Positions 52,203 to 63,500 of a stretch of DNA of 64,000 bases are shown here, piece after piece. Position 1 is the first letter of the stretch. Every line of letters begins with the position of its first letter. The stretch comes from Phytophthora colocasiae (Eukaryota > Oomycota > Peronosporomycetes > Peronosporales > Peronosporaceae): the NCBI GenBank assembly GCA_018806915.1, contig JAGKQI010000085.1, forward strand, positions 744,001-808,000, given 5' to 3'. The translations under genes and the position numbers were made by a program. Under the pieces are notes generated by a model. It made no database searches. It had not been told where the DNA came from and saw nothing but the letters and a program-made list of their open reading frames with translations.

Positions 52203-52842
52203 CAAGCAAGCTTGCTCCAAGATTCATTGGGCCGTTCAAAGTACTTGAACGGCACGGTAACGCGTACCGGCTGGACATACCGTCCAGCATGAGGCTCCAC
52301 CCGACCTTCTACGTCGGGCGGTTGAAGCCGTACGTGCAGCACGGACTACCTGGGGTTGGTAGTCCGACTGAGGAGTGCGAGAGGCCTGGAAGGCCTCTCG
52401 AGACCGTCGACACGGTCGATCAACCGGTTCACTCTTGTCCCAAGACCGGACGAGAGGTTCGAGGCAGTCTGAGCTGCCTCACAGACCTCAGCACGGAGGT
52501 CACGAACCTCCTGCTTCAGAGCAGCTATCTCAGCGCTCTGTGTCTGCTCCAGCGCAGCAACTCGATCGTGCAGAGCACGATCGTCATGGTCAAAGCGGTG
52601 ACCATCCGGAGGGAGTGTTCCCGCCCCCTCCGCCGCCGTTGCGCCACGCGAGTGGAGCGATCCGCTGGATTGTTGAGCAGATCGTGGCTCATAAGAGAAC
52701 GAACTCTCAAGGGGTTCGTTTTCGTATTCGTTGGAGAGGATTTCCTCCCCATCGAGATACATGGGAGCCGCGGAACGTCCTGATGGAGGACGTTCCGGAA
52801 ATGGTGAGGGCGTACGAAGCCCACCATAACTTGCAGGGGTAA
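52203..52842 (+). pseudogene. pol: Pol C-terminus of F: GPY/F region and chromodomain
   Basis: Begins LAPRFIGPFKVLERHG and SMRLHPTFYVGRLKPY, the integrase C-terminal GPY/F module, in one frame. The chromodomain (WIVEQIVAHKRTNSQ, FRIRWRGFPPHRDTWEPR) lies in another frame and ends at 52842. The linker between has no family motif. The frame change between the two, at about 52400, is either a mutation or a recoding event. The whole stretch after 52346 is also coding on the other strand for the aORF. Confidence 0.8.
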
Positions 52843-53896
52843 GCCCTGCACGAGGAGTGCTGCGGTCAGCCACAGCACTCGGAGCTTCGCGTGGCACAAT
52901 ACGACCACGGAGCTCCTTGATGTGATCGGGTACACGGACGACCGTGTACCCCAGGAGATCACTTTCGGTGAGACGTGTTGCCAACCCTTGGCAACACAGA
53001 CAGGGTGTGCCAAAGGGAACGGCACATGGGACCCTCGCTTCCATGGACTGATCATGGAGGCGTTCACACTTACCACGCGTAGTGTAAGTGTAGTAGCGAT
53101 CGCGAGCCGCAGCAACGCGCTCGCGATATGCCTTCGGGTCTTTGTTGAAGTTTTCAACAAAGGCGTTCCACGACTGACAAAGTGCCTGCCACTCTGGCAC
53201 TTTGCTCTTGCGCGAAGTCTTCTTCGCTGCATAGTATCGGAGCTCGTGGAAGAGCCCGATATAGTAGTCGCGTCTTTGAGTCTCGGACTCAAAGACAACC
53301 TTAGCGGCAACGTCGTCGTCGTTGATACTGTTGCATGAGTACAACAGTATCGGGTTCGGTGGTGAACTAGCACCGAACCGGTCATGGATCTCTGCCTCAG
53401 TAGGCATCCATGGTGTGCGCACTGGCGGATCAGTGCGCGGGGCACTGAGCGCCCTCGACATGGAGGACGCTTCGTCATCACTGCGCGGACGCTTCGAGCT
53501 TGAAGCGTCCGAGGCCTCATTACGAGGTCGTTGAGATCCCACGGGTGGGTCTGACGTGTCTTCGGACGAAGACAGGGGAGCGGGAGCCTTGGCATCAAGC
53601 TCTCCCTCCTCGACATCCTCGTCGTAGTCGAGGATGTCTTCGTAGTCCTCTCCAAAGAGTTCTTTGAGAGGGACAGCAGGATTCTTAATCTCTGCTAGAG
53701 AAGAAGACTTCTTCTTCTTCTCATGCTTCTCCTTATGGAGAGCATGGTACTTGGTGACAGAGAGCTTCTCTGTCGGACCGCTGGAAGCAGCAGCGCTAGT
53801 GGGAACTGCTGAGGTCGTTGTTCCTGCTGCAGAGGCAGCAGGTGAGGCTTGCGCGTCCGCAGAAGCGGACGGAGACGTGGGCGTTGGCGAGTCCAT
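52346..53896 (-). CDS. Antisense gene (aORF) of F, intact, 516 aa
   Basis: Start ATG 53896 (MDSPTPTSPSAS), stop 52346. Residues 1-55 Ser/Ala/Thr-rich; 60-85 Lys-rich; 95-130 acidic (ELFGEDYEDILDYDED); then a Ser/Arg-rich linker. A folded-looking part at about 185-330 follows (DRFGASSPPNPILLYSC, RDYYIGLFHELRYYAAKK, WNAFVENFNKDPKAYRERV) with Cys-rich CLCCQG. The last 80 residues are coiled coil (DRVAALEQTQSAEIAALKQE, VNRLIDRVDGLE). The coiled-coil end lies opposite the pol linker and chromodomain. No known family recognised; it shares layout with the aORFs of E and G, and a weak motif (ELFG/EIFG before an acidic run) with G. No homology to the A/B aORF is obvious. Confidence 0.75.
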   Translation of the reverse strand: MDSPTPTSPSASADAQASPAASAAGTTTSAVPTSAAASSGPTEKLSVTKYHALHKEKHEKKKKSSSLAEIKNPAVPLKELFGEDYEDILDYDEDVEEGELDAKAPAPLSSSEDTSDPPVGSQRPRNEASDASSSKRPRSDDEASSMSRALSAPRTDPPVRTPWMPTEAEIHDRFGASSPPNPILLYSCNSINDDDVAAKVVFESETQRRDYYIGLFHELRYYAAKKTSRKSKVPEWQALCQSWNAFVENFNKDPKAYRERVAAARDRYYTYTTRGKCERLHDQSMEARVPCAVPFGTPCLCCQGLATRLTESDLLGYTVVRVPDHIKELRGRIVPREAPSAVADRSTPRAGLTPASYGGLRTPSPFPERPPSGRSAAPMYLDGEEILSNEYENEPLESSFSYEPRSAQQSSGSLHSRGATAAEGAGTLPPDGHRFDHDDRALHDRVAALEQTQSAEIAALKQEVRDLRAEVCEAAQTASNLSSGLGTRVNRLIDRVDGLERPSRPLALLSRTTNPR

Positions 53897-53980
53897 TGCG
53901 AAATGAACTCGGATTTCTCTCGGGAACTTGACGGTCTTGTCAAGTTCTGTAGATTGACGTATCGAGACCGATACGTCGAA

Positions 53981-53997
53981 TCTTAACGGGGGGATGG
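53981..53997 (+). other. Polypurine tract of F
   Basis: ACGGGGGGATGG immediately before TGTAACGGGG, which fits a plus-strand primer next to the LTR. Confidence 0.6.
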
Positions 53998-54457
53998 TGT
54001 AACGGGGTTACACGTACAAGTGGTTGTACCACTTGTAACTCTAACAGTTAGGATAACTGTTAGAAGTTGGAAATGGGCCTCAGACCTTGGTGTGCTGTAC
54101 ACACCAATGGATACATGGGCGAACCACATTATTGGATGGTTCGTGTGCATTTGTGCATATTATTGGTAGAAAGTAACAGATTTCTACCAATCACTGAGCA
54201 GAGTTTCTGCCAACCACACGTTGGTAGACCCTTTAGAAATAGATAATAAACAGTTTTAGGAGGTCCATAATTGGCTTATGCCAAATTCAATAACAGTTCT
54301 CATTTTACGGTATTTTGCAGTTTAATTTAGTTATATTTGATTTAATTATACTTATTTAAATAAGTATACTTAAATTAAGTCTATTCTAATTGCACGCTTC
54401 CTCATATACGTAAGGGCACGTGTACGCCACCTAATAGGTCTAGGTAGACCCATTACA
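53998..54457 (+). repeat. LTR between F and E (about 460 bp)
   Basis: Starts TGTAA, ends TTACA (54453-54457), a 5-bp terminal inverted repeat. It is almost wholly made of hairpins: TGTAAC/GTTACA 53998-54012, TACAAGTGG/CCACTTGTA 54015-54037, TCTAACAGTTA 54040-54064, TTGGTGTG 54087-54107, ATTGGTAGAAA 54162-54191. A 22-bp perfect AT palindrome lies at 54347-54368. No second copy is in the window, so the borders are inferred. No TGG-type primer-binding site follows. Confidence 0.55.
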
Positions 54458-54473
54458 CTGTTTCTCTGTGAGA

Positions 54474-55455
54474 ATGGAGCAAGAAGCATACGCTCACTTG
54501 ACTCCGAGTCAGCAGGACACGCTTAACCCACCTTAACAAGCTTACGTCATTGCTGGGCCCTGAAGGTATGGCGCACCTTGCGTCTCAAGGGCCGGAGACC
54601 GTCAACGCGCGCCTCGAGGTATTTGCCTCGTACGAAAACGCTCTCGTCGAGCACATTCAGCGGAATGTAAAAGGGGCTACCCCTGCTCAGAGAGCTAAGC
54701 CCGTCACGCGCAGCGTGAAGACTTTTCACGGGAAGGAGGGAGAGAACCTCCTGTTGTGGACCCGAGAGGTCGAAATGGCCATGGAGGCCGCCATGTTCCA
54801 GTTGGAGGGGCCACGCGTGGCGTTTGCCATCTCCAAGCTCGAAGGACGAGCACGAGAATGGGCTTTGACGTCTGGGACGTCGGTGGAAGCGGCCTTCCCT
54901 ACTTGGGGCGAGCTAAAGGCCAAGCTCATGCAAGTGTCTGCTCCGCCTAACCAGGCGTATCGCGTGCGGTCACGCTTCCTTGCTTGCCGACAGGGCAAGT
55001 AGGATCTGGTGGACTATGTCCAAGAGCTTCGCACGCTCATCGCCGGCATGGCTACCGGTCCTCTACCTGAGGTGGTCGCCGTGACCATCTTCATGGAAGG
55101 CTTGCGAGCTGGTGTGGCCAGGACGGAGGCATTCCGTCATAGCCCCCGCAGCTTTGAAGACGCTGTCAGCGTGGCATTGAATGCCGAACACAACTTTAAG
55201 TTGTCGAGGGTCGTTGCTATCAGCACAGGGTCCGGGGGACCCGAGCCCATGGACCTCAGCTATGCTGAAGATGAGGTAGCTGAGCTACGAGCTGCGGTGC
55301 AGCGTATGAGCACCCGCCGGTGCTATAAATGCGGCAGTCCCTCACATCTGAGGCCCAACTGCCCTCTGCGCAAAGAGCGCGCCGGCCAGAATGGCCGCAA
55401 CCCTGCCGCGGGTCCCGCTTTGGGCTCTGCCCAGGGAAACGCCGGCTCCCAGTAG
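54474..55455 (+). pseudogene. gag: Gag of E, broken
   Basis: ATG at 54474 ([17 protein letters not shown]) is in a different frame from the main part, with a shift near 54525. The main frame holds a retrotransposon Gag capsid core ([51 protein letters not shown]). A TAG at 55000-55002 interrupts it; the reading continues DLVDYVQELRTLIAGM. One CCHC knuckle (CYKCGSPSHLRPNC) lies near 55320-55365. Length (about 325 aa) is usual for Gypsy, unlike the giant A and B Gags. Ends at TAG 55453-55455, inside the stem of a frameshift hairpin. Confidence 0.85.
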
Positions 55456-55475
55456 ACGCGGGGCGGTCTACTGGG
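55434..55475 (+). promoter_or_regulatory. -1 programmed ribosomal frameshift signal of E
   Basis: GGGAAAC (55434-55440) in correct phase (GGA AAC in gag frame), 7-nt spacer, then CCCAGTAGA (55448-55456) pairing TCTACTGGG (55467-55475) with a 10-nt GC-rich loop. Protease is in the -1 frame and is open from 55440. Heptamer, spacing and frame all fit a classical site. Confidence 0.8.
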
Positions 55476-56590
55476 GAAGAACCGAGTTCTGCAGTGCGTG
55501 AGAGGCACTGGGGCTCAGCCCCGAAGAGCTCCGTGCTCTTGAACACGGAACGTGCGAGCAAGCAGGGCTTGCTGGTCATCCAGGTGAACGTAAAGGGCTT
55601 CAAGAAGCCGTGGATCGTGTTGATCGATTCGGGAGCGTCTGGCAACTATGTCAGACGCTCCACCGTTGAAGGTAGTCAGCAATATGCTGAGGCGCTTCGA
55701 GCGCGAAGAGGTGACACAGTCACAGTCCGTCTAGCGACGGGCGTCCGTGTCACGGTGGCCAAGGTCCCCAGCTGAAGTTCTTGGACTTCGATAGCGTGGA
55801 ACGCTGCTTGGTCCTGGACCTGAATTCGAGGTACGACCTCATACTTGGCATCGTGTGGCTGGAGCGCCACGAGCCATGGATTGATTGGAGGTCGAAGACC
55901 TTAGGTGCTACGCACTTCTCTCCTAGTGGAGCTTTGGCGAGTCATGAACCCACCTCTGCTAGGAAGCAGAAGCGCTATTGGTGCGAGCATCGAGCCGAGT
56001 CGGCTATGATGCTGGAAGTCGGTGTGTCCGAGTTAGGGGACAGCACCGAGTGCGAAGACCGCAGTCCTGTTGAGCGCATAGCGCTGGTTGACAGTGAGTC
56101 AACGTGTGGGCAAAGCTCACGTAACCCCTGTGGGGCGGCACGTACTCCGCCGAGTGACGCCGATCATGGACCGTCACTGGATGCCGATGGCATCGGGCCT
56201 TACCAGGCCGTGAACTGTGGGGCGGCACGTACTCCGTCGAGTGATACTGGTCGTGCACCAAGTCGATCGCTGAGTGTCTCTGACACTGGACCTGTTACGG
56301 TCATTGATTGTGCAGCGGCACGTACTCCGCTGAGCGGCATCGGTCGTCGACCGAGTGGATCGCAGAGTGTCACTGACACTGGGCCCGAAGGGGCCGAAAC
56401 CTGTGCGGCGGCACGTACTCCGTCTAGTGACGTCGGCGGTAGACCGAGTCAGTCACTGAGTGTCACTGACACTGGGCCGGGCAAGGCCATAACCTGTGCG
56501 GCGGCACGTACTCCGTCGAGTGGACGTTCGTCGGGCGACGACGTCGTAAGGCCCTATGGGCGAGACGCTCTGCGTCTGAGTCGTCCGTGA
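55440..56590 (+). pseudogene. pol: Protease and repeat-bearing linker of E pol
   Basis: Reads from the slippery site. Catalytic VLIDSGASGNYVRR near 55615-55655. The frame ends at 55773 (AKVPS stop) and resumes in the next frame (LKFLDFDSVERCLVLDL, YDLILGIVWLERHEPWIDW), so one base was gained or lost near 55770. A linker with a 31-residue repeat follows, ending at 56590, where the RT frame starts with another shift near 56585. Two indels therefore separate Gag-Pro from RT in this copy. Confidence 0.85.
56134..56530 (+). repeat. 93-bp tandem repeat in the E protease-RT linker
   Basis: The word GGCGGCACGTACTCCG recurs at 56134, 56221, 56314, 56407 and 56500, that is 87, 93, 93 and 93 bases apart. 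In frame it encodes a 31-aa unit such as CAAARTPSSD followed by SVTDTGP. Unit length is a multiple of three, so expansion keeps the frame. Confidence 0.85.
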
Positions 56591-59500
56591 CGTCAAGTGT
56601 CAACGCACGGGAGGGCTGTGGGCAGCTATACACTCTGGTTGATGGAGTGGACGGCAGTGCCGAAGGCAGCGTCCTGCTGGACGGACTGCCGAGTGTTGAC
56701 AAGCTCCTTGAGCTAGAAGAGATGTCGTTCGCCGACTTTGGCGATGCCTTGAAGGCTGGCGAACTCGCCGAGGTGGTCATCGTTCGACCTGAGGAGGAGT
56801 TAAACTCATCGTCCCTCGTAGACGAGTCCGTCTTGGCCGAGGTCAAGAAGGCGCTGAGCGCCAGGAGCGGATCGGAGATCCTCAAGAATCCCTCGGACCC
56901 CTTCTACTCCTTGCGGAAGGAATATGGAGACGTTGTCTCGAAGGAACCACCGAGTGGCCTGCCTCCTGACCGAGGCGTTCGTCACGAGATCGACTTAGTT
57001 CCCGGAACTAAATACTGCGTGACCCGGCAGTGGCCTCTTCCTAAAGATCAATGCGACGTCATTGACGCCTTCTTCCGCGCGAAGCACGCGGCGGGTCTCG
57101 TGCGCGAGAGCAAGTCTCCGCACTCCGCGCCAACGTTCTGTGTCAGAAAGCCGAATGGCAAGTGGCGCATCGTTCATGCTTTTAACAAGCTCAACGCTGC
57201 CACGATTCCGGCGCAGACGCCGATTCCTAGGAAGGATGTTCTTCAGAACAACATGGTGGGTTGCACCATGTACAGTGCGCTCGACTTGGTCGACGGCTAC
57301 TATCAGCTGCTCATGCGAGCCAATGATATCCCGCTCACGGCGGTGAGCACTCCGAGCGGTATGCTCTGGGAGTGGCTCGTCATGCCCCAAGGGCTGTCGA
57401 ACGCGCCTGCAACGTTCAACCGTCTAGTGACGCAACTGTTTAGACCCCTGCGGGTATTCGCACAGACGTACTTTGACGACGTGTTCGTCCACAGTCGTGC
57501 TGAGCACGGGAAGTCTGATGTCGAGGTACACGTGGAGCACGTACGAGCTGTGCTCGAGTGTATGCGCAATAACAAGTTGTACGCCAACGCGGACAAGTGC
57601 GTCTTTGGCGCGGAAGAAATCCCTTTCCTAGGGTGCTTCATTGGGAAGCATGGTCTTCGTGCTGATCCAGCAAAGGTCAAGGCCATTGTGGACTGGCCGG
57701 TTCCCTTGAACCAGAAGGACTTGCGTAAGTGGCTGGGTTTGGCCAACTACTTGCACAAGTACAGCGAGAACTACGCTGAGTTGGCTCGGCCACTGTCGGA
57801 TCTCCTTAAGAAGGATGCCGAGTGGGTATGGTGTGCCGAGCACGAGAATGCGTTCACTTGTATCAAGGATAGCCTGCTTCAGGCACCGATATTGGCGTTG
57901 CCAGACCCCGCTCGTCCGTTTATCGTCGTCTGTGACGCCTCGGACTTTGCCATCGGCAGTGCTTTGCTACAAGCGGACGCCGAAGGGCGCGAACGCGTCA
58001 TTGCGTTTGAGTCTCGGCAGCTCAAGGCTGCTGAGAAGAACTATCCAGTTCATGACAAGGAGCTACTTGCGATGAAGTACGCTCTCGTCAAATTCAGGGT
58101 TCAGCTGCTCGGCTCCAAGCCGTTTGTGATCTACACGGATCATGCGTCACTACGCACAGCGACGCAGTCGCCTCACCTCTCGCAGAGGATGGCCCGATGG
58201 CTCTCCTTCTTTGCGGAGTATAACTTCGAGGTGAAGTACAAGCCTGGCAGGCAGAACGTCCTCGCTGACGCGTTATCACGTCGCCCGGACTATGAGTTAT
58301 CTCATGTCACCTCGGTGACGTCGTCCGTGACGGACATGGTTCGAGCAGCGTACGCTCAGGACGACTCTTGTGTCGCGCTGCTTCAAGCTCTGGGGAGCGA
58401 TGAGTTTAAAGACTCAAAGGTGACTCTGTCACGACGCCTAAAGGCGAGACTCCAACGCTACAGCCTGGAAGGCGGTCTGCTGTACTACAGCACGGGTCAG
58501 AATGACCCACCACGAGTGGTGGTTCCTCACGATGAGGATCTGAAGTACCGTATCCTCTATGAGGCCCATGACACACCCACAGGCGGCCACCTCGGTCGCG
58601 AGAAGACGTACGGCTCGGTGAGCTCCATGTACTGGTGGCCGAAGATGTACAAGTGGGTCAGCACATATGTGCGCACGTGCGAGACGTGTCAGCGGGTTAA
58701 ACCCTCGCCGCATGCGGCTGCGCCTTTGGCGAGCTTACCTGTACCCTCTGGGTGTTGGCAGTCCATAAGTATGGACTTTGTGTTTGGCCTGCCGAAGGAC
58801 TCGGCAGGCAACACGGGCGTGGTGGTCTTTGTTGACCGTCTGAGCAAGATGGCTCACCTAGCGGCTGTGCCGGACACCGTCGATGGCGCTGGTACAGCGA
58901 CGATCTTCATCGATCGGGTCTTCCGCCAGCATGGGCTGCCTGAGACCATTGTCTCGGATCGAGATCCCCGTTTCACGGGTCACTTCTGGACGTCCGTCTT
59001 CAAGGTGCTGGGCACTCGACTGGACATGTCCACGGCGGACCATCCGCAGACCGACGGTCAGACCGAACGCGTGAACCGCGTTCTGGAGGACATCCTTCGC
59101 AGCGTATGCGCTGAAACGCCGAAGCGTTGGAGCGCTATGCTCCCTCTCGTTGAGTTCTCCATGAACAATGCGGTGCATGCCTCGACAGGCTTCACCCCGT
59201 TCTACGTGAACGGCCTTGCGCATCCGCGCGTCCCGCTCACTCCGCCTCGCGGTAGCCTTGGGCTTAGTGGGGGAGAGGCTGTGCCGTCGCTCGACTCCGA
59301 GCTTGCTGATATCAGCCCTTCTGCTGTGCGTAAACAAGTCGATGACTTCCTCTCGGTGAGATTGAGCGTATTACGCCGTGTGCGTGACGCGATGGCCGAA
59401 AGCCAAGACGTTCAGAAAGAACAGGCTGATGCAAAAGGCAGAGGCAATGTATGGGAATTTAAGGTCGGTGACCAGGTTTTATTAAACGCTAAGAACCTAC

Positions 59501-59841
59501 CTACACATGCAGTGTCCAGTGTCTTTAAGACGAAATTGCGTCCGCGTTTCATCGGACCATTTACGGTCGTGGCCAAGAAGGGCCTGGCATACACGCTTGA
59601 CTTACCAAAGCGGATGCAAACACACCCTGTGTACTACGTCGGCTTGCTTAAGCCATATCGGGACCCCGCGGGGGTGAGCGCGGAGGCGCTGGCGCCGACG
59701 GCACGCGCCCAGGCTGCGTCATCTGCAGCAGCAACGTCACCTAACCCCGCAGCTCAGCGAGCTGAAGCTCCTGCTGGTGCATGCGAGCGGTCAGAGACTT
59801 CGAGCCAAGCCACCCGGCTCTCGATCTCCTCCATGTCGTGA
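56587..59841 (+). CDS. pol: Pol of E: RT, RNase H, integrase (uninterrupted ORF, 1084 aa)
   Basis: The ORF begins at 56587 on a non-ATG triplet (ACG... in the open frame); the protein is probably released from a Gag-Pol precursor. RT spans about residues 140-330: YCVTRQWPLP, APTFCVRKPNGKWR, YSALDLVDGYYQL, FNRLVTQLF and active site YFDDVFVHS (about 295). A single RNase H spans about 445-560: catalytic VVCDASDFAIGSALLQ, HDKELLAMKYAL, YTDHASLRT, here with the normal Asp residues, and RQNVLADALSR. Integrase: HHCC (HDTPTGGHLGREKT, CETCQRVKP) about 660-705, Asp in ISMDFVFGLP, Asp in VSDRDPRFTGHF, Glu in TDGQTERVNRVLEDI. GPY/F near the end (RPRFIGPFTVV, HPVYYVGLLKPY). This is the best preserved polymerase in the window. 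It stops before the chromodomain. Confidence 0.92.
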   Translation: MTSSVNAREGCGQLYTLVDGVDGSAEGSVLLDGLPSVDKLLELEEMSFADFGDALKAGELAEVVIVRPEEELNSSSLVDESVLAEVKKALSARSGSEILKNPSDPFYSLRKEYGDVVSKEPPSGLPPDRGVRHEIDLVPGTKYCVTRQWPLPKDQCDVIDAFFRAKHAAGLVRESKSPHSAPTFCVRKPNGKWRIVHAFNKLNAATIPAQTPIPRKDVLQNNMVGCTMYSALDLVDGYYQLLMRANDIPLTAVSTPSGMLWEWLVMPQGLSNAPATFNRLVTQLFRPLRVFAQTYFDDVFVHSRAEHGKSDVEVHVEHVRAVLECMRNNKLYANADKCVFGAEEIPFLGCFIGKHGLRADPAKVKAIVDWPVPLNQKDLRKWLGLANYLHKYSENYAELARPLSDLLKKDAEWVWCAEHENAFTCIKDSLLQAPILALPDPARPFIVVCDASDFAIGSALLQADAEGRERVIAFESRQLKAAEKNYPVHDKELLAMKYALVKFRVQLLGSKPFVIYTDHASLRTATQSPHLSQRMARWLSFFAEYNFEVKYKPGRQNVLADALSRRPDYELSHVTSVTSSVTDMVRAAYAQDDSCVALLQALGSDEFKDSKVTLSRRLKARLQRYSLEGGLLYYSTGQNDPPRVVVPHDEDLKYRILYEAHDTPTGGHLGREKTYGSVSSMYWWPKMYKWVSTYVRTCETCQRVKPSPHAAAPLASLPVPSGCWQSISMDFVFGLPKDSAGNTGVVVFVDRLSKMAHLAAVPDTVDGAGTATIFIDRVFRQHGLPETIVSDRDPRFTGHFWTSVFKVLGTRLDMSTADHPQTDGQTERVNRVLEDILRSVCAETPKRWSAMLPLVEFSMNNAVHASTGFTPFYVNGLAHPRVPLTPPRGSLGLSGGEAVPSLDSELADISPSAVRKQVDDFLSVRLSVLRRVRDAMAESQDVQKEQADAKGRGNVWEFKVGDQVLLNAKNLPTHAVSSVFKTKLRPRFIGPFTVVAKKGLAYTLDLPKRMQTHPVYYVGLLKPYRDPAGVSAEALAPTARAQAASSAAATSPNPAAQRAEAPAGACERSETSSQATRLSISSMS

Positions 59842-60115
59842 GCGAGACGGGCATGCGAATGCCAAACACTCTCCATGTTCCCTTGAAGGGACTGAGAGTA
59901 TCGATCGAGCGATCGAGTTGATACCAGGCGCGCTGCGACAGATAACGCTCGTCACACTCATCGAGTATTGCGTTCCGCAGCGAATCGGCCTCCTCCACCG
60001 TTGCTCGACGAGCAGGGGACCCCCCCATTACCACGTGGAGCGCCTGATGGTGCGGCGTCGCCACCGTAGTCAAAACCAGTATCTGGTGAAGTGGCGTGGG
60101 TATCCTCATTCCCAA
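59741..60115 (-). pseudogene. Antisense gene remnant of E, overlapping pol end
   Basis: A minus-strand frame of about 124 codons whose C-terminal part (LRNAILDECDERYLSQ, WYQLDRSIDTLSPF, SLTARMHQQELQLAEL) is helical and charged. It lies opposite the pol tail and chromodomain, as in F and G. The upstream part is lost where E joins G at about 60200. Weaker as a gene call than F. Confidence 0.45.
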
Positions 60116-60202
60116 AACTCGTGGGAGTTTGAAGGGCCCCTGAGGCAGGACTGCCCTGGCGTCGTGGACGCTTTTGATCGCGAAGATCGGAGGGCTCGAG
60201 GT
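59999..60202 (+). pseudogene. pol: Chromodomain of E pol, out of frame
   Basis: HYHVERLMVRRRHRSQ, QYLVKWRGYPHSQNSWE and VVDAFDRE form a chromodomain in the frame one base away from pol, whose ORF stops at 59841. A base change in the linker or recoding separates them. E ends here, and G integrase starts at PFYLNGL (about 60203). Confidence 0.75.
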
Positions 60203-61430
60203 CGCCGTTCTACTTGAACGGGCTTCGGAACCCCCTGGTGCCGCTCACACTGGGTGGGGGCACCGCGGCTTCGAGAGTAAGTGCGGGAGAGGCTCGGAAA
60301 GAGCTTTCCTCCCAGGTTTCCGGTGTGGAACCAGCCGCGCTGCGGAAGAAGTTGTCGACATTTGTCGGCAACAGGCTGAATGTGATCAGCCGGGTGCGAG
60401 ATACAATGGCACTCGTACAGGACAAGCAAAAGGAGTACTCAGACCAACATGGAAGAGGAAACTTAAGTGTATTGAATGTGGGTGACTTAGTGCTACTCGA
60501 CACTAGGAACCTACCTCTTAACACTGTTAGCTCCACGGTGAGCAACAAGTTGAAGCATCGCTTCATTGGACCCTTCAAGGTCCTGGGTAGGCACGGCGCT
60601 GCCTACACGATCGACTTGCCTAAGTCGATGACGACCCACCCGACGTTTTATGTGGGTCGTCTGAAGCGGTACCATGACCCTCAGGGTCATGCGGCCCCTC
60701 AAGAGGTTGAAGGCGGCCGCGAGGAGGAGAGTGAACCTTCTCGACGCGACATTGAGCGTCAGGCGCATAGCGCCCCAGGTAATAGGGAGTTTGGTGACTC
60801 CCAGGGGCGAAGCCGTACCCCGGTGGAAGGTACGAGCGGTGTGGATACACCAAGGGGCCAAGTGAGTAGGCCCCTAGGCGCGAGTCGCGCGACGACGGGG
60901 AGTACGCGTACGGTTGCGACTCTCGGCGAGACATCGTCGCCTGAAGGTCGTAGACCTCTTGACGAAGGGAGTCAAGTGCCCGCGAAGAGGCACTACGGTC
61001 TACACGACCATGAAGACCCTGCATCGCGAGACGCAGGTCTTCCAGTAGGCGCACGACACCAGGTTGGCCGACTGCAGGGCAGCCTGGCCGCCAACACCAA
61101 GACCAAGAGCGACCTCAAGCGCGAGGACACGCGCTCGGAGGAGGCGGATCTCCTCCTGTTGCTGAGCAACAAGTTGGTCAAGAGGCCCAATCGAAGGCCT
61201 CTGAGTCCCCAACGTCGGGGACGGCTCGAAAGAGCAGTCGAGCGAGGCCTCCTCCGGCTTTGCTTGACCGGAACGGAGAACGCCACTACCATGTGGAGCG
61301 GGTTCTCCAGGAGCGGCGTCGCGGTGGGAAGCGCCAGGTGGCGCGGGTACCCTGCGTCTGCAGATTGAGCGGCTCCAGGTTGACTGCCCGAAGGCTGTCG
61401 CGTGCTGGGAAGAGGCGCGGCGACAGCCTC
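60203..61430 (+). pseudogene. pol: Integrase C-terminus and chromodomain of G
   Basis: Starts PFYLNGLRNPLVPLTLGG, which aligns with E PFYVNGLAHPRVPLT, then VISRVRDTMALVQDKQKEY, LNVGDLVLLDTRNLP, HRFIGPFKVLGRHG, HPTFYVGRLKRYHDP. The frame stays open through a low-complexity linker to 61368. The chromodomain is split: NGERHYHVERVLQERRR in one frame (61260 on) and RWRGYPASAD in the other. Related to E but a separate, 5'-truncated copy. Confidence 0.82.
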
Positions 61431-62784
61431 GTACGTAATCCGCGGCTTCTTAGCCGCTGAACGGAGTTGGGACACAGGTGTATGTGTTCCATACCCGCGC
61501 TCACTACGAGCGCTGGACTGAGACTCAGTTCTCAGTCGCTCCATCTGATGATGGAACTTACGTTTGCCTACAAGGTGGGCAAACTGAACACGAAGGTCCC
61601 GGAGACGGAGGATGTCCTCCAGGTGATCTTCGTCACGGAGTTTGTTGAACTCCTGGGTTGACTTGACTGTCAACCGGACCCATCGCCAAAAGAGGTCCTC
61701 ATCGTCGACCCACGACGCAGTGTTCTCTGGGAGAACCCATGGGTAACCCCACGTGGGCTTGAGACCACCCTTAGTCTCAGGCTTCTTGCGAAGCGAGGTG
61801 AATTCCTTGAGAGGAATTCGGTGCTGTGGTAGAAGCACGCACCTGGCAACAGAGAGGTTGCCTTGAAAGAGAGGTTCTTTCTGAACCAAGGCCCGCTCAT
61901 AGGCGCATTTGGAGGCATGGTCCCCTATGAGAGGACGTGGGTCCTGGAGCTGCTCGAGGTACGCAGCAGCTCCCGAGCCTTGCTCGGGCGGGTAGTATCC
62001 CCGCTGGTGGTCAGAGTCCTCATCGTGTTGATGAGACTCACATGCGACCGTTGGTGCGGTGCGCATTGGCTGTTGAGCAGCCTGAAAGAGCTCTTGCTGC
62101 TCATCGAGATCGTTAGTGATCTCTTGGGGCTCGCGGATGAGCCCCTACTCCTCATCGGCGTCGTCATCGTCGACGTCGTCGGGGCCGAAGATCTCTTCGA
62201 GCTCCCTTATCCTTGTGATGTGTTGACAAGGAGACTGTGAAGCATGACGCTTCTTGGAGTTGGTGCTGGACACCTTCTCCTCTGCCAGAATGGCCCGGGC
62301 GCGTTCGCGCCCTTCAGCAAATGTCAGATGTCTGACAGGTGGTGGCGTAGTGTCGCCACCACGGCCGCTGGTGTTGTCGGGAAGACTTGGACGCGGTGTA
62401 CTTGTCTCCATGGTACTCCTCCGTGGTCGGAGCACCTGCCGCAGGCTTGCCCTCAGCGTCATCGTTGTCGCTCTCGTCGCCCGAGTAGCTGACAAGAGTC
62501 GCTTCGTGTTGGGAAGGACTCCAGGAACCGGGACTATTGTCCCTATACTCGAACCGAGGATTCGGTCGAGTATCAGGCGATAGGGACGGAGACCTACTGC
62601 GCCTTTGGCTAGGGCTAGCCGTCGCAGCAGTGCTGCTGGGCGAGCTAAGAGCCCTGGAGGCCACATTGGTGGCCTCATGAAGTGCCGAAGCCTTGCCGCG
62701 AGGCTTGGCTGGCTTGGAAGTTGGCTTTGCAGCCTTCTTCCGTGAAGACGCTTGCGCGTCTGGGTTTGCACCTTTTGCAGACAT
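60620..62784 (-). pseudogene. Antisense gene (aORF) of G, frameshifted
   Basis: Start ATG 62784 (MSAKGANPDAQASSRKKAA). Pieces: 62784 to about 62350, then another frame to 62145 (HLTFAEGRERARAILAEE, RIRELEEIFGPDDVDDDD, stop), 62066-61300 (PTWGYPWVLPENTASWVDD, FWRWVRLTVKSTQEFNKL, VQFAHLVGKRKFHHQMERL), then two frames with coiled coil (LVAQQQEEIRLLRARVLALE; LDSLRQEVYDLQATMSRR) to the stop at 60620. Layout parallels F: Lys/Ser start, acidic run, folded middle, coiled-coil tail opposite pol. About 700 residues if whole. Function unknown. Confidence 0.65.
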
Positions 62785-62953
62785 GTTGCTGGGCTTCCAA
62801 GGAAGCCTGGTACGCGTTGGCAGTGCGCCCTGTGCTCTGTGAGAGCAGAAGCCGCAGCGATAAGAGCTGGCGGCAGGTCGATCGATTTCGACATTGAAGA
62901 GAGAAATGTGAAAGGGATTTTCTCTCTTCTCTGATTGGACGAGAGTCGAATCT

Positions 62954-62965
62954 AAGTGGGGAGGA
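62954..62965 (+). other. Polypurine tract of G
   Basis: AAGTGGGGAGGA directly before TGTTCTCGG, placed as expected after the aORF start. Supports 62966 as the start of the G LTR. Confidence 0.5.
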
Positions 62966-63500
62966 TGTTCTCGGAAATTTTTTTTTCCGAGCTAAGGGGT
63001 AGATCCCAGTCGCCTGCTATTCCTCTACTTTCTTGTCCCTGTGAAATTCGTTTTGACTCTTTGGTCGGGTGGGCTGTCTGGAACGACTGCTATATATTAT
63101 GTTTTATATAATTTTATAAATTCGGATGGATGTTGCTCCTGTCGTCTACCAGCAACATCAAATGGTAATTTAAAAACAAAGTTGAAATTTATTCGACCAA
63201 TCATAACAAAATAAAACATGTTTTCGCTTGTGATGTTGCGCGAATGTCGCCAATAGGATATTGTCGTGATTGCAACGAAACTTCCTTCCGGTCGCGTACC
63301 TTTACACCGCAACGGGACTATGATCGAGGTAAGCGGTGAGTGATGGGATCACAAGGTCATCAAGAGTGTACCTGGTTGAGAAGCAGACCTTTAGATCGTT
63401 GAGAACCAGATCTTTGATGGATTGATAGCGACAGGATGAGCGCCGCGCTCCGTTAGACCTTAGGCATTCTGATAAAAGCAAGTTTCGGCTGAAGTCGACC
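62966..63500. other. Likely G LTR start, then AT-rich unassigned DNA
   Basis: TGTTCTCGG opens with an inverted repeat CTCGGAAA/TTTCCGAG around T residues (62970-62992). No matching LTR end (GAACA) or second copy was found. Further on, GATGTTGCT/AGCAACATC (about 63127-63157) and AT-rich runs near 63090-63120 and 63165-63220. No convincing gene. Confidence 0.35.

Follow-up and report, generated by a model that had tools for sequence, protein, structure and literature searches.

The interval 52203-62968 of the window, the whole 64,000-nucleotide stretch of Phytophthora colocasiae DNA that was analysed, is a mosaic in which the 3' end of a family-A element is followed by element E and then by the 3' internal part of a family-G element. 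Its features are as follows:

52203..54458, plus strand: 3' portion of a family-A Ty3/gypsy element, cut on its 5' side, with the integrase end, an antisense gene and the 3' LTR; hairpin-saturated
52203..52337, plus strand: probable C-terminal end of the family-A integrase (SH3_Tf2-1 region), from a Pfam match on the copy L051 transferred via the alignment
52346..53896, minus strand: antisense ORF of 516 codons between pol and the 3' LTR; hairpin-saturated
52975..52997, no strand assigned: 10-bp hairpin with a CCC loop in the window; exact loop inversion among copies
53698..53722, no strand assigned: 10-bp hairpin with the loop CTTCT; exact loop inversion among copies
53996..54458, plus strand: family-A 3' LTR of 463 bp; identical segment at both ends of L051
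54459..60193, plus strand: element E, a related gypsy element represented by its gag-pol; moderately folded, perfect stems not saturating
60203..62968, plus strand: 3' internal part of a family-G gypsy element, LTR absent, with the integrase end and an antisense gene; hairpin-rich

The family-A portion aligns to element positions 6010-8267 of L051 at 97.3% identity, and the family-G portion aligns to element positions 5220-8006 of L054, a copy of family G, at 95.2% identity. L051 is a full-length family-A copy of 8,267 bp whose two 463-bp LTRs show 0 differences, the family-A LTR starting with the hairpin TGTAAC-GGG-GTTACA, and its Pfam matches follow the order Retrotrans_gag, Ty3_capsid, zf-CCHC, RVP_2, RVT_1, RT_RNaseH, Integrase_H2C2, rve and SH3_Tf2-1. 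With an LTR pair, a gag with capsid and CCHC domains, and a pol ordered RT-RNase H-integrase, L051 is a Ty3/gypsy element. L063, considered as an 80% diverged relative, proved to be a truncated copy with 95-97% identity. No relatives beyond the host genome were found among the viral contigs or other genome contigs searched, and all relatives compared come from one genome. The host itself is assigned to the oomycetes by 62 matches to elicitins, proteins that mark this group, against zero in 14 control genomes.

Perfect stems with loops of 3-15 nt were counted and compared with dinucleotide shuffles and codon-preserving shuffles. The original prediction held that three retroelements are saturated with perfect short hairpins, more than twenty of them in 52.2-54.4 kb, where fewer than one is expected. 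In the 2,256 bp of 52203-54458, 30 stems reach 8 bp or longer, whereas 100 dinucleotide shuffles average 0.36 and never exceed 3, and the antisense ORF holds 21, against a mean of 0.81 and a maximum of 5 in 300 codon-preserving shuffles. Family G (59860-62965) has 11 stems (mean 0.58, maximum 3, 100 shuffles), placing both A and G far beyond the shuffled range. E (54459-59860) has 5 stems at 8 bp (1.10 in 100 shuffles, maximum 4), 10 at 7 bp (4.72, maximum 13) and 50 at 6 bp (17.6, maximum 32), which is near the local background, since the remainder of the window (1-52000) also lies above its shuffles with 35 stems against a mean of 9.35 (maximum 16, 20 shuffles). Saturation is thus borne out for A and G and rejected for E, which is only mildly structured; the individual hairpins that had been named at 55632, 58787, 61800 and 61516 are all present. 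The raised count in 1-52000 is what might be expected if the hairpins were due to chance, to base composition or to faulty assembly, but the probability of such an origin is negligible given the results with both types of shuffle, the sharp limits at the element ends and the recurrence of hairpins in other copies. All 34 distinct aligned copies of the A segment, on many contigs, bear hairpins, with 28-36 stems each (12.4-16.7 per kb), and this disfavours an assembly or local artefact.

L051 contains 159 non-overlapping hairpins of at least 7 bp, which span the element from LTR to LTR at a density of ~15 per kb throughout, and its host flank of 1.5 kb (three 500-bp bins) contains none; both flanks of L054 likewise lack hairpins. 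Family A has approximately one hairpin per 50 nt, with a stem mode of 9 bp and a median span of 23 nt. Stems in L051 measure 7-13 bp, the longest perfect stem being 13 bp with loops of up to 20 nt, and the longest stem in the copy L053 is 18 bp. Stems with one mismatch are also in excess in L051 (32, against ~5 in 40 shuffles). The per-kb figures of the RT comparison exclude L010 and L023, fragments of one further place (790 and 600 bp, with 8 and 6 stems of at least 8 bp, respectively). The counts, the element limits and the copies together show that the short perfect hairpins genuinely exist, recur throughout the family, extend just as far as the element does and, as set out below for family A, vary less among copies in their stems than elsewhere. 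The expectation that no such family had been described agrees with searches of the open-access literature, where no hairpin-saturated LTR retrotransposon was found among the top-ranked results.

A known Rfam element was rejected as the hairpin source, as nothing in L051 reaches the gathering threshold. A source of double-stranded RNA had been among the causes proposed for the hairpins, and Phytophthora produces small RNAs of 21 nt from inverted repeats and of 25 nt from transposable elements (PMC3804510), which would be compatible with hairpins that supply dsRNA or miRNA-like RNA to the element or its host. This is nevertheless very unlikely because the stems, including the 18-bp stem of L053, are shorter than the 21-25-nt small RNAs and fall under one small-RNA duplex; the Rfam result for L051 also argues against it.

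Folding excess was calculated with ViennaRNA using 12 shuffles per folding window, and z-scores were obtained from 24 codon shuffles each. The excess on the plus and minus strands is 36.6% and 45.4% in family A, 28.1% and 35.6% in family G, and 10.1% and 14.6% in E; it is about 0 in the host flank (-1.3/-3.4%), and two other stretches of the window give 4.7/2.8% and -0.2/1.7%. The z-scores are -16.6 for the antisense ORF, -14.7 for A pol, -13.8 for G and -5.6 for E pol. All 27 folding windows of 300 nt in L051 exhibit an excess of at least 20.2% on either strand, and all 27 in L054 an excess of at least 13.2%, as calculated with a program that differs from that of the ordered-structure definition. 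In family A, stem length decreases with GC content (r = -0.28, p = 0.0003), as expected from selection on stability, and family G exhibits no such relation (r = 0.07). Hairpin sites of A and G coincide in 9 of 18 cases, with 35% expected by chance (p = 0.22), and since positions match no more than chance, a generic property seems to be selected rather than particular sites. Spacing is slightly even in A and clustered in G, for which reason the idea that evenly placed hairpins keep 25-nt small RNAs off was rejected. Stems have no codon-phase preference in A (p = 0.46) and a weak one in G (p = 0.02).

For the analysis of variation among copies, 51 loci with a match of at least 1,900 bp were reduced to 33 distinct places, which together with the window form 34 rows; a 3.8-kb alignment likewise has 34 rows. 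Variant classes were scored at sites where the reference copy has the majority base, and singletons were taken as mostly post-insertion. Among the 34 copies, shared variants occupy 2.1% of the sites in stems, 4.2% of those in intervening sequence and 8.9% of those in loops, whereas single-copy variants occupy 12.4%, 12.5% and 16.7%, respectively. Stems thus have the fewest shared changes and loops the most, and singletons are nearly even, suggesting purifying selection on the hairpins. Three further reference copies give the same order of shared variation; the difference between loop and intervening sites is not significant with one reference copy (p = 0.11), and three of the four show a mild surplus of singletons in loops as well. 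An earlier contrast of fixed differences (stems 2/686, loops 15/231, between 32/1,339; 32 copies, with the window and L020 left out) is biased because the window copy was used to define the stems, a bias that the majority-base scoring above corrects. Compensated arm changes, which the original prediction proposed to look for, occur in 1 of 625 stem pairs, and 26 pairs carry a shared one-sided break; selection on pairing alone should accumulate compensated pairs, but the count has little power because the copies are only 2-5% divergent. Taken together, the copies suggest that the hairpins are maintained by selection; for a mobile element, this would be a whole-genome fold of unusual strength.

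The antisense ORF is hairpin-saturated and at the same time constrained at the protein level. Among the genome matches listed for it, 65 of 84 lack an in-frame stop (83 of 663 candidates scored). Shared substitutions number 11, 20 and 46 at codon positions 1, 2 and 3, and singleton substitutions 64, 51 and 74, with 517 sites at each position. At third positions, shared variants are found at 7 of the 166 sites that lie in stems and at 39 of the 351 outside them (p = 0.012).

In four hairpins the loop of one copy is the exact inversion of that in another while the stems are intact, and template switching therefore acts on the hairpins. The inversions are CTT/AAG, in one of five copies; GAT/ATC, in one of the 26 covering copies; the loop at 52975..52997, which reads GGG in 26 of 34 copies, AGG in five and CCC in three (the window and two others); and the loop at 53698..53722, which is CTTCT except in L020, the one copy of 34 with AGAAG. 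Of 29 clusters in the 3.8-kb alignment, only the three inversions that lie in it have a reverse-complement match spanning the whole hairpin (25 nt, with 12 nt for the next best cluster). At odd-loop centres, 6 of 12 changes are of complement type versus 110 of 664 (p = 0.009), three of the six being inversions already counted. Family-A stems exhibit no arm asymmetry against E (206 versus 204.7 in random placements), and their amino-acid identity to E is 0.64 versus 0.62 for the rest. With no asymmetry or identity loss, the stems of A were probably not built by wholesale arm copying, which was rejected as their main builder. Comparisons of A with G and of G with A also give no arm asymmetry. 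G against E, however, gives an asymmetry of 181 versus 102, a level attained by a fraction 0.008 of the simulations, and the amino-acid identity of G stems to A is 0.54, lower than the 0.61 of the rest, so that the role of arm copying in family G is less clear. Template switching, as proposed, leaves its products in these elements, and its proposed copying of one arm onto the other is unsupported in A and less clear in G.

These observations bear on whether the hairpins could result from mutation alone, with the element's RT or host replication switching templates at imperfect hairpins, so that hairpins without a function become and stay perfect, each hairpin promoting the next correction. The inverted loops, the excess of complement-type changes and the behaviour of G stems are all consistent with such a drive, as is the inconsistent RNA-strand signal described below, and template switching is known to invert spacers and to homogenise arms (PMC8604942, PMC8794818). 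Under this drive, however, a mutated arm should often be copied onto its partner, and the single compensated pair stands against 26 shared one-sided breaks; A lacks both arm asymmetry and identity loss, whether compared with E or with G; E has an RT that is 68% identical yet few hairpins; and the excess of one-mismatch stems indicates that mismatches are not promptly removed. Mutational drive as the whole cause is rather doubtful on this balance.

Wobble-type flanks were compared between strands. G-T type flanks are favoured over A-C type flanks in the A antisense gene (19 to 6), A-C type flanks in A gag-pol (50 to 33) and G-T type flanks in G gag-pol (25 to 10, p = 0.04). In both regions of A, wobble-type flanks point to the strand that lies opposite the coding one (p = 0.02 and 0.07), which together with the higher minus-strand folding excess in A and G would fit selection on single-stranded cDNA or antisense RNA rather than on sense genomic RNA. 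G gag-pol, however, has the opposite wobble direction, and the strand difference in energy is present in E too and may reflect base skew, making such a target unlikely. Strand preference as judged by wobble is inconsistent across the A and G regions. Selection for a structured genomic RNA is the best supported of the causes originally proposed, with stems poor and loops rich in shared variants and z-scores of about -14 to -17 in A and G.

The reading favoured here, which is probable though by no means secure, is that the whole element is a selected hairpin chain, built site by site in family A, with template switching as a minor process and, more tentatively, escape from silencing or packing as a possible benefit. 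The LTR, gag, pol and antisense gene form one series of short perfect hairpins, which purifying selection on the element's folded nucleic acid would maintain as an extreme form of genome-scale ordered structure. In family A, hairpins would have been built up one site at a time, under the limits set by the coding sequence, rather than through transfer of one arm's sequence to the other, and template switching is a minor mutational process that inverts the loops of finished hairpins, as its products show. The benefit may be a genomic RNA or cDNA that small-RNA silencing reaches with difficulty, or that packs well into particles. Several results run against selection on the fold: the scarcity of compensated pairs, the inconsistent wobble signal, the absence of a length-GC relation in G, a spacing that does not clearly cover the RNA, the asymmetry of G against E, the reduced identity of G stems to A, and singletons that are also somewhat commoner in loops. 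A wider proposal, that a genome-wide fold across coding and regulatory DNA alike has evolved or been retained independently in no fewer than two families (A and G), with hairpins at positions that do not match, serves against silencing or in packing and is fed by template switching, is put forward tentatively. If the favoured reading is true, a mobile element has a fold several times stronger than those of the structured RNA viruses compared below while keeping its protein genes, and natural replicates are available for testing two ideas: that extensive RNA folding shields the genome of a parasite against RNA silencing, and that template switching is enough by itself to create and preserve perfect hairpins. 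A young multicopy family with slow stems and free loops is a ready data set for both.

Several known systems share part of this pattern. Ty3 is likewise a Ty3/gypsy element, and its mapped genomic RNA is partly well folded, the well-folded core comprising almost 20% of the RNA; perfect-hairpin saturation is not described in the cited part of that work (PMC11381356). Plant Retand gypsy elements also have an antisense ORF between pol and the 3' LTR, in their case with a TRP28 domain, but they occur in a different host group, and the cited part of their description does not mention hairpin saturation (PMC11963269). The antisense proteins of A and G match no Pfam family above the cut-off. Coding palindromes in Nematomorpha mitochondria resemble A and G in that perfect repeats lie within working protein genes, with protein and hairpin both kept, and template switching is discussed as their cause (PMC6649704). 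Those repeats, however, reach 284 bp in a mitochondrial genome with no excess of imperfect repeats reported there, whereas the short stems of A and G lie in coding and LTR DNA of a mobile element with one-mismatch stems in excess, and palindromes of the Nematomorpha type were rejected on the grounds of stem length and imperfect stems (PMC6649704). Template-switch mutations in RNA hairpins and in yeast coding inverted repeats exhibit the same exact inversion of loop or spacer with stems kept, the known events being in rRNA or host genes and those described here on a hairpin-saturated element (PMC8794818, PMC8604942). RNA viruses with ordered structure resemble these elements in folding, as a folding excess over shuffled controls also extends along their genome and through coding sequence, with MFED values of 10.9% for a region of HCV and 9.0% for a region of MNV against a threshold of 3%; the comparison is approximate, as those values were obtained with UNAFold and 50 shuffles and the present ones with ViennaRNA and 12 (PMC3950689). 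Element E, at 10-15%, stands at the level of those viruses, whereas A and G reach 28-45% in an LTR retrotransposon by means of short, local, perfect hairpins.

The window is G000:C53:744001-808000 in a 92.5-Mb genome, whose 62 elicitin matches, against zero in 14 control genomes, suggest an oomycete, elicitins being markers of that group. The interval under study combines pieces of three gypsy elements (A, E and G). It is set out below with a full-length copy of A (L-numbers denote genome loci).

52203-54458: family A 3' end (integrase end, antisense 516-codon ORF and LTR)
52346-53896, minus strand: A antisense gene, no Pfam family above cut-off
53996-54458: A LTR, 463 bp
54459-60193: gag-pol of element E, which is related to A
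60203-62968: family G 3' internal part
60993-62066 and 62145-62894, minus strand: further antisense genes, second family, no Pfam family above cut-off
L051 1734-10000: full-length A copy

Perfect stems of at least 8 bp with loops of 3-15 were counted in the window. The A piece holds 30 (100 dinucleotide shuffles average 0.36), its antisense ORF 21 against 0.81 in 300 codon-preserving shuffles, and G (59860-62965) 11 against 0.58 expected in shuffles, whereas E holds 5 against 1.10. The original observation of three saturated retroelements therefore holds for A and G, which lie far above their shuffle means, but hardly for E. When the A piece is tiled, 52 hairpins of at least 6 bp cover 55% of its length.

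Folding energy excess, measured in 300-nt windows with 12 dinucleotide shuffles each, is 36.6% (plus strand) and 45.4% (minus strand) in A, 28.1% and 35.6% in G, 10.1% and 14.6% in E, and -1.3% and -3.4% in host flank. Values quoted in PMC3950689 for structured viruses are 10.9% for an HCV region and 9.0% for an MNV region, with a threshold of 3%, obtained with programs and shuffle numbers other than those used here. With 24 codon-preserving shuffles as the control, z is -16.6 for the antisense ORF, -14.7 for A pol, -13.8 for G and -5.6 for E pol. In 150-nt windows, z falls below -2 in 93-96% of those in A, 91-93% in G, 36-47% in E and 0/16 in host flank. The window remainder (1-52000), which contains other gypsy elements, also has more stems than its 20 shuffles (35 against 9.35), with folding excess near zero in two stretches (plus/minus, 4.7/2.8% and -0.2/1.7%).

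The LTRs of L051 (463 bp each) are identical, with 0 differences, and the copy is therefore young; a piecewise Pfam search identified its gag, protease, RT, RNase H and integrase. It carries about 15 hairpins per kb from LTR through LTR, and the adjoining host flank has none in its first three 500-bp bins. There are 127 stems of at least 8 bp with loops up to 20, and the excess peaks at a stem length of 9 bp and ends at 13 bp, most loops being 1-8 nt; 159 non-overlapping hairpins have stems of at least 7 bp (121 of at least 8 bp), with a median span of 23 nt. Full-length G copies have 92 (L054) and 88 (L055) stems of at least 7 bp, and both L054 flanks have no stems. In 1-kb RT fragments, excluding L010 and L023 (two shorter fragments, one further place), stems of at least 8 bp number 12-14 in A copies L051, L057, L061 and L062, 6 in the truncated A copy L063, and 0-2 in five E copies including that of the window. 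Family copies retain the hairpins: each of the 34 distinct A-segment copies that were aligned has 28-36 stems of at least 8 bp. Hairpin saturation is real, strong and family-wide, and neither chance nor composition nor artefact accounts for it.

Variation was analysed in a 3.8-kb alignment of 34 copies, at sites where the reference copy carries the majority base. Variants shared by at least two copies occupy 2.1% of sites in stems, 4.2% in intervening sequence and 8.9% in loops; for singletons the figures are 12.4%, 12.5% and 16.7%. Given that singletons are assumed to be mostly post-insertion changes, their near-even rate serves as a built-in control, although they are somewhat more frequent in loops with three of four reference copies. 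Three further reference copies give the same order, with loop versus intervening not significant in one (p = 0.11). Compared with L051, the A copy L053, which is more distant (95.2% over 2,973 bp), has differences at 1.5-2.9% of sites in stems, 5.3-5.7% in intervening sequence and 8.6-8.9% in loops; the values vary with the copy in which stems are called. In the antisense ORF, third codon positions carry shared variants at 7/166 sites in stems and 39/351 elsewhere (p = 0.012).

Judged by its codon pattern, this ORF behaves as a real gene, and its predicted protein shows signs of purifying selection: at codon positions 1, 2 and 3, shared substitutions number 11, 20 and 46 of 517 sites each, and singletons 64, 51 and 74. 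Among the matches listed, 65 of 84 genome matches have no in-frame stop. Antisense genes between pol and LTR occur in two families, and plant Retand elements are described with antisense ORFs at the same location (PMC11963269).

Had one arm been copied over the other, a large distance from the outgroup would be expected for one of the two, together with damage to the protein. Neither is seen in A against E, where amino-acid identity is 0.64 in stems and 0.62 elsewhere and arm asymmetry is 206 against 204.7 in random placements, nor in A against G (no asymmetry; identity 0.64 and 0.57). The outcome in G is less clear, with asymmetry against E of 181 versus 102 in random placements (0.008) and identity to A of 0.54 in stems and 0.61 elsewhere. 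Template switching does act on existing hairpins, since four have a loop exactly reverse-complemented between copies with stems intact, which is a signature of this process (PMC8604942, PMC8794818).

Loop inversions between copies
CTT/AAG: RT, 1/5 copies
GGG/CCC: window 52975-52997, 3/34 copies
CTTCT/AGAAG: window 53698-53722, 1/34 copies
GAT/ATC: pol, upstream of the point at which the window's A piece is cut, 1/26 copies

Of 29 minority-difference clusters, only three, each a loop inversion, match the reverse complement across a whole hairpin (25 nt; next best 12). The proposal of template switching thus stands as an activity on hairpins but not, in A, as arm copying that builds them, and self-driven template switching remains a less likely origin. 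Compensated arm changes were nearly absent: a one-sided break is shared at 26 of 625 stem pairs, and a compensated copy occurs at 1, itself reached via such a break. One-mismatch stems are over-represented (32 against about 5). The arm-identity, asymmetry, break and mismatch data point to hairpins that would be built slowly, mostly by synonymous changes, and maintained by purifying selection, template switching being a probable side process. This selection reading is moderately favoured over self-driven switching. Against it stand the near absence of compensation (divergence among copies is small), a stem length-GC relation in A only (r = -0.28; G 0.07), hairpin spacing with no clear arrangement for coverage, and wobble counts favouring opposite strands in different regions.

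Whole hairpins present in one A copy are missing from the other (L053 1530-1550; L051 element 2134-2181), namely a 21-bp hairpin and a stretch with two hairpins next to a near-repeat, so hairpins are also gained or lost as units. L051 carries one hairpin in two places separated by 72 bp (element positions 2387 and 2459). TGTAAC-GGG-GTTACA, a small hairpin, opens the LTRs of both A (window 53997-54013) and G (L054 from 618), families otherwise far apart. Upstream of RT, E contains coding tandem repeats spaced by about 93 bp (window 56128-56538). The A-LTR/E-gag junction (window 54458/54459) recurs in L020 (G000:C53:681954-687157) as one contiguous match of 96.6% over 3,704 bp; occurring at both places, it reflects either duplication of a segment or a chimeric element in which A's LTR is combined with E's genes. 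At L044 3388/3389 an A copy abuts an inverted A piece (about 717 bp), which may have arisen by a large strand switch or from two insertions, one nested in the other.

Transposable elements are reported as the main source of Phytophthora 25-nt small RNAs (PMC3804510), and P. infestans gypsy elements as matched by small RNAs along their length in both orientations (PMC3522703). These reports make a possible role of the hairpins as a silencing shield worth testing. In line with the suggestion that no such family had been described, top-ranked results from mainly open-access literature gave no description of hairpin saturation in an LTR retrotransposon, and A and G belong to a familiar class of element, with a trait for which we found no description. 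The closest known systems are GORS viruses, the coding palindromes of Nematomorpha (PMC6649704) and the mapped Ty3 RNA, for which a well-folded core of almost 20% is reported (PMC11381356).
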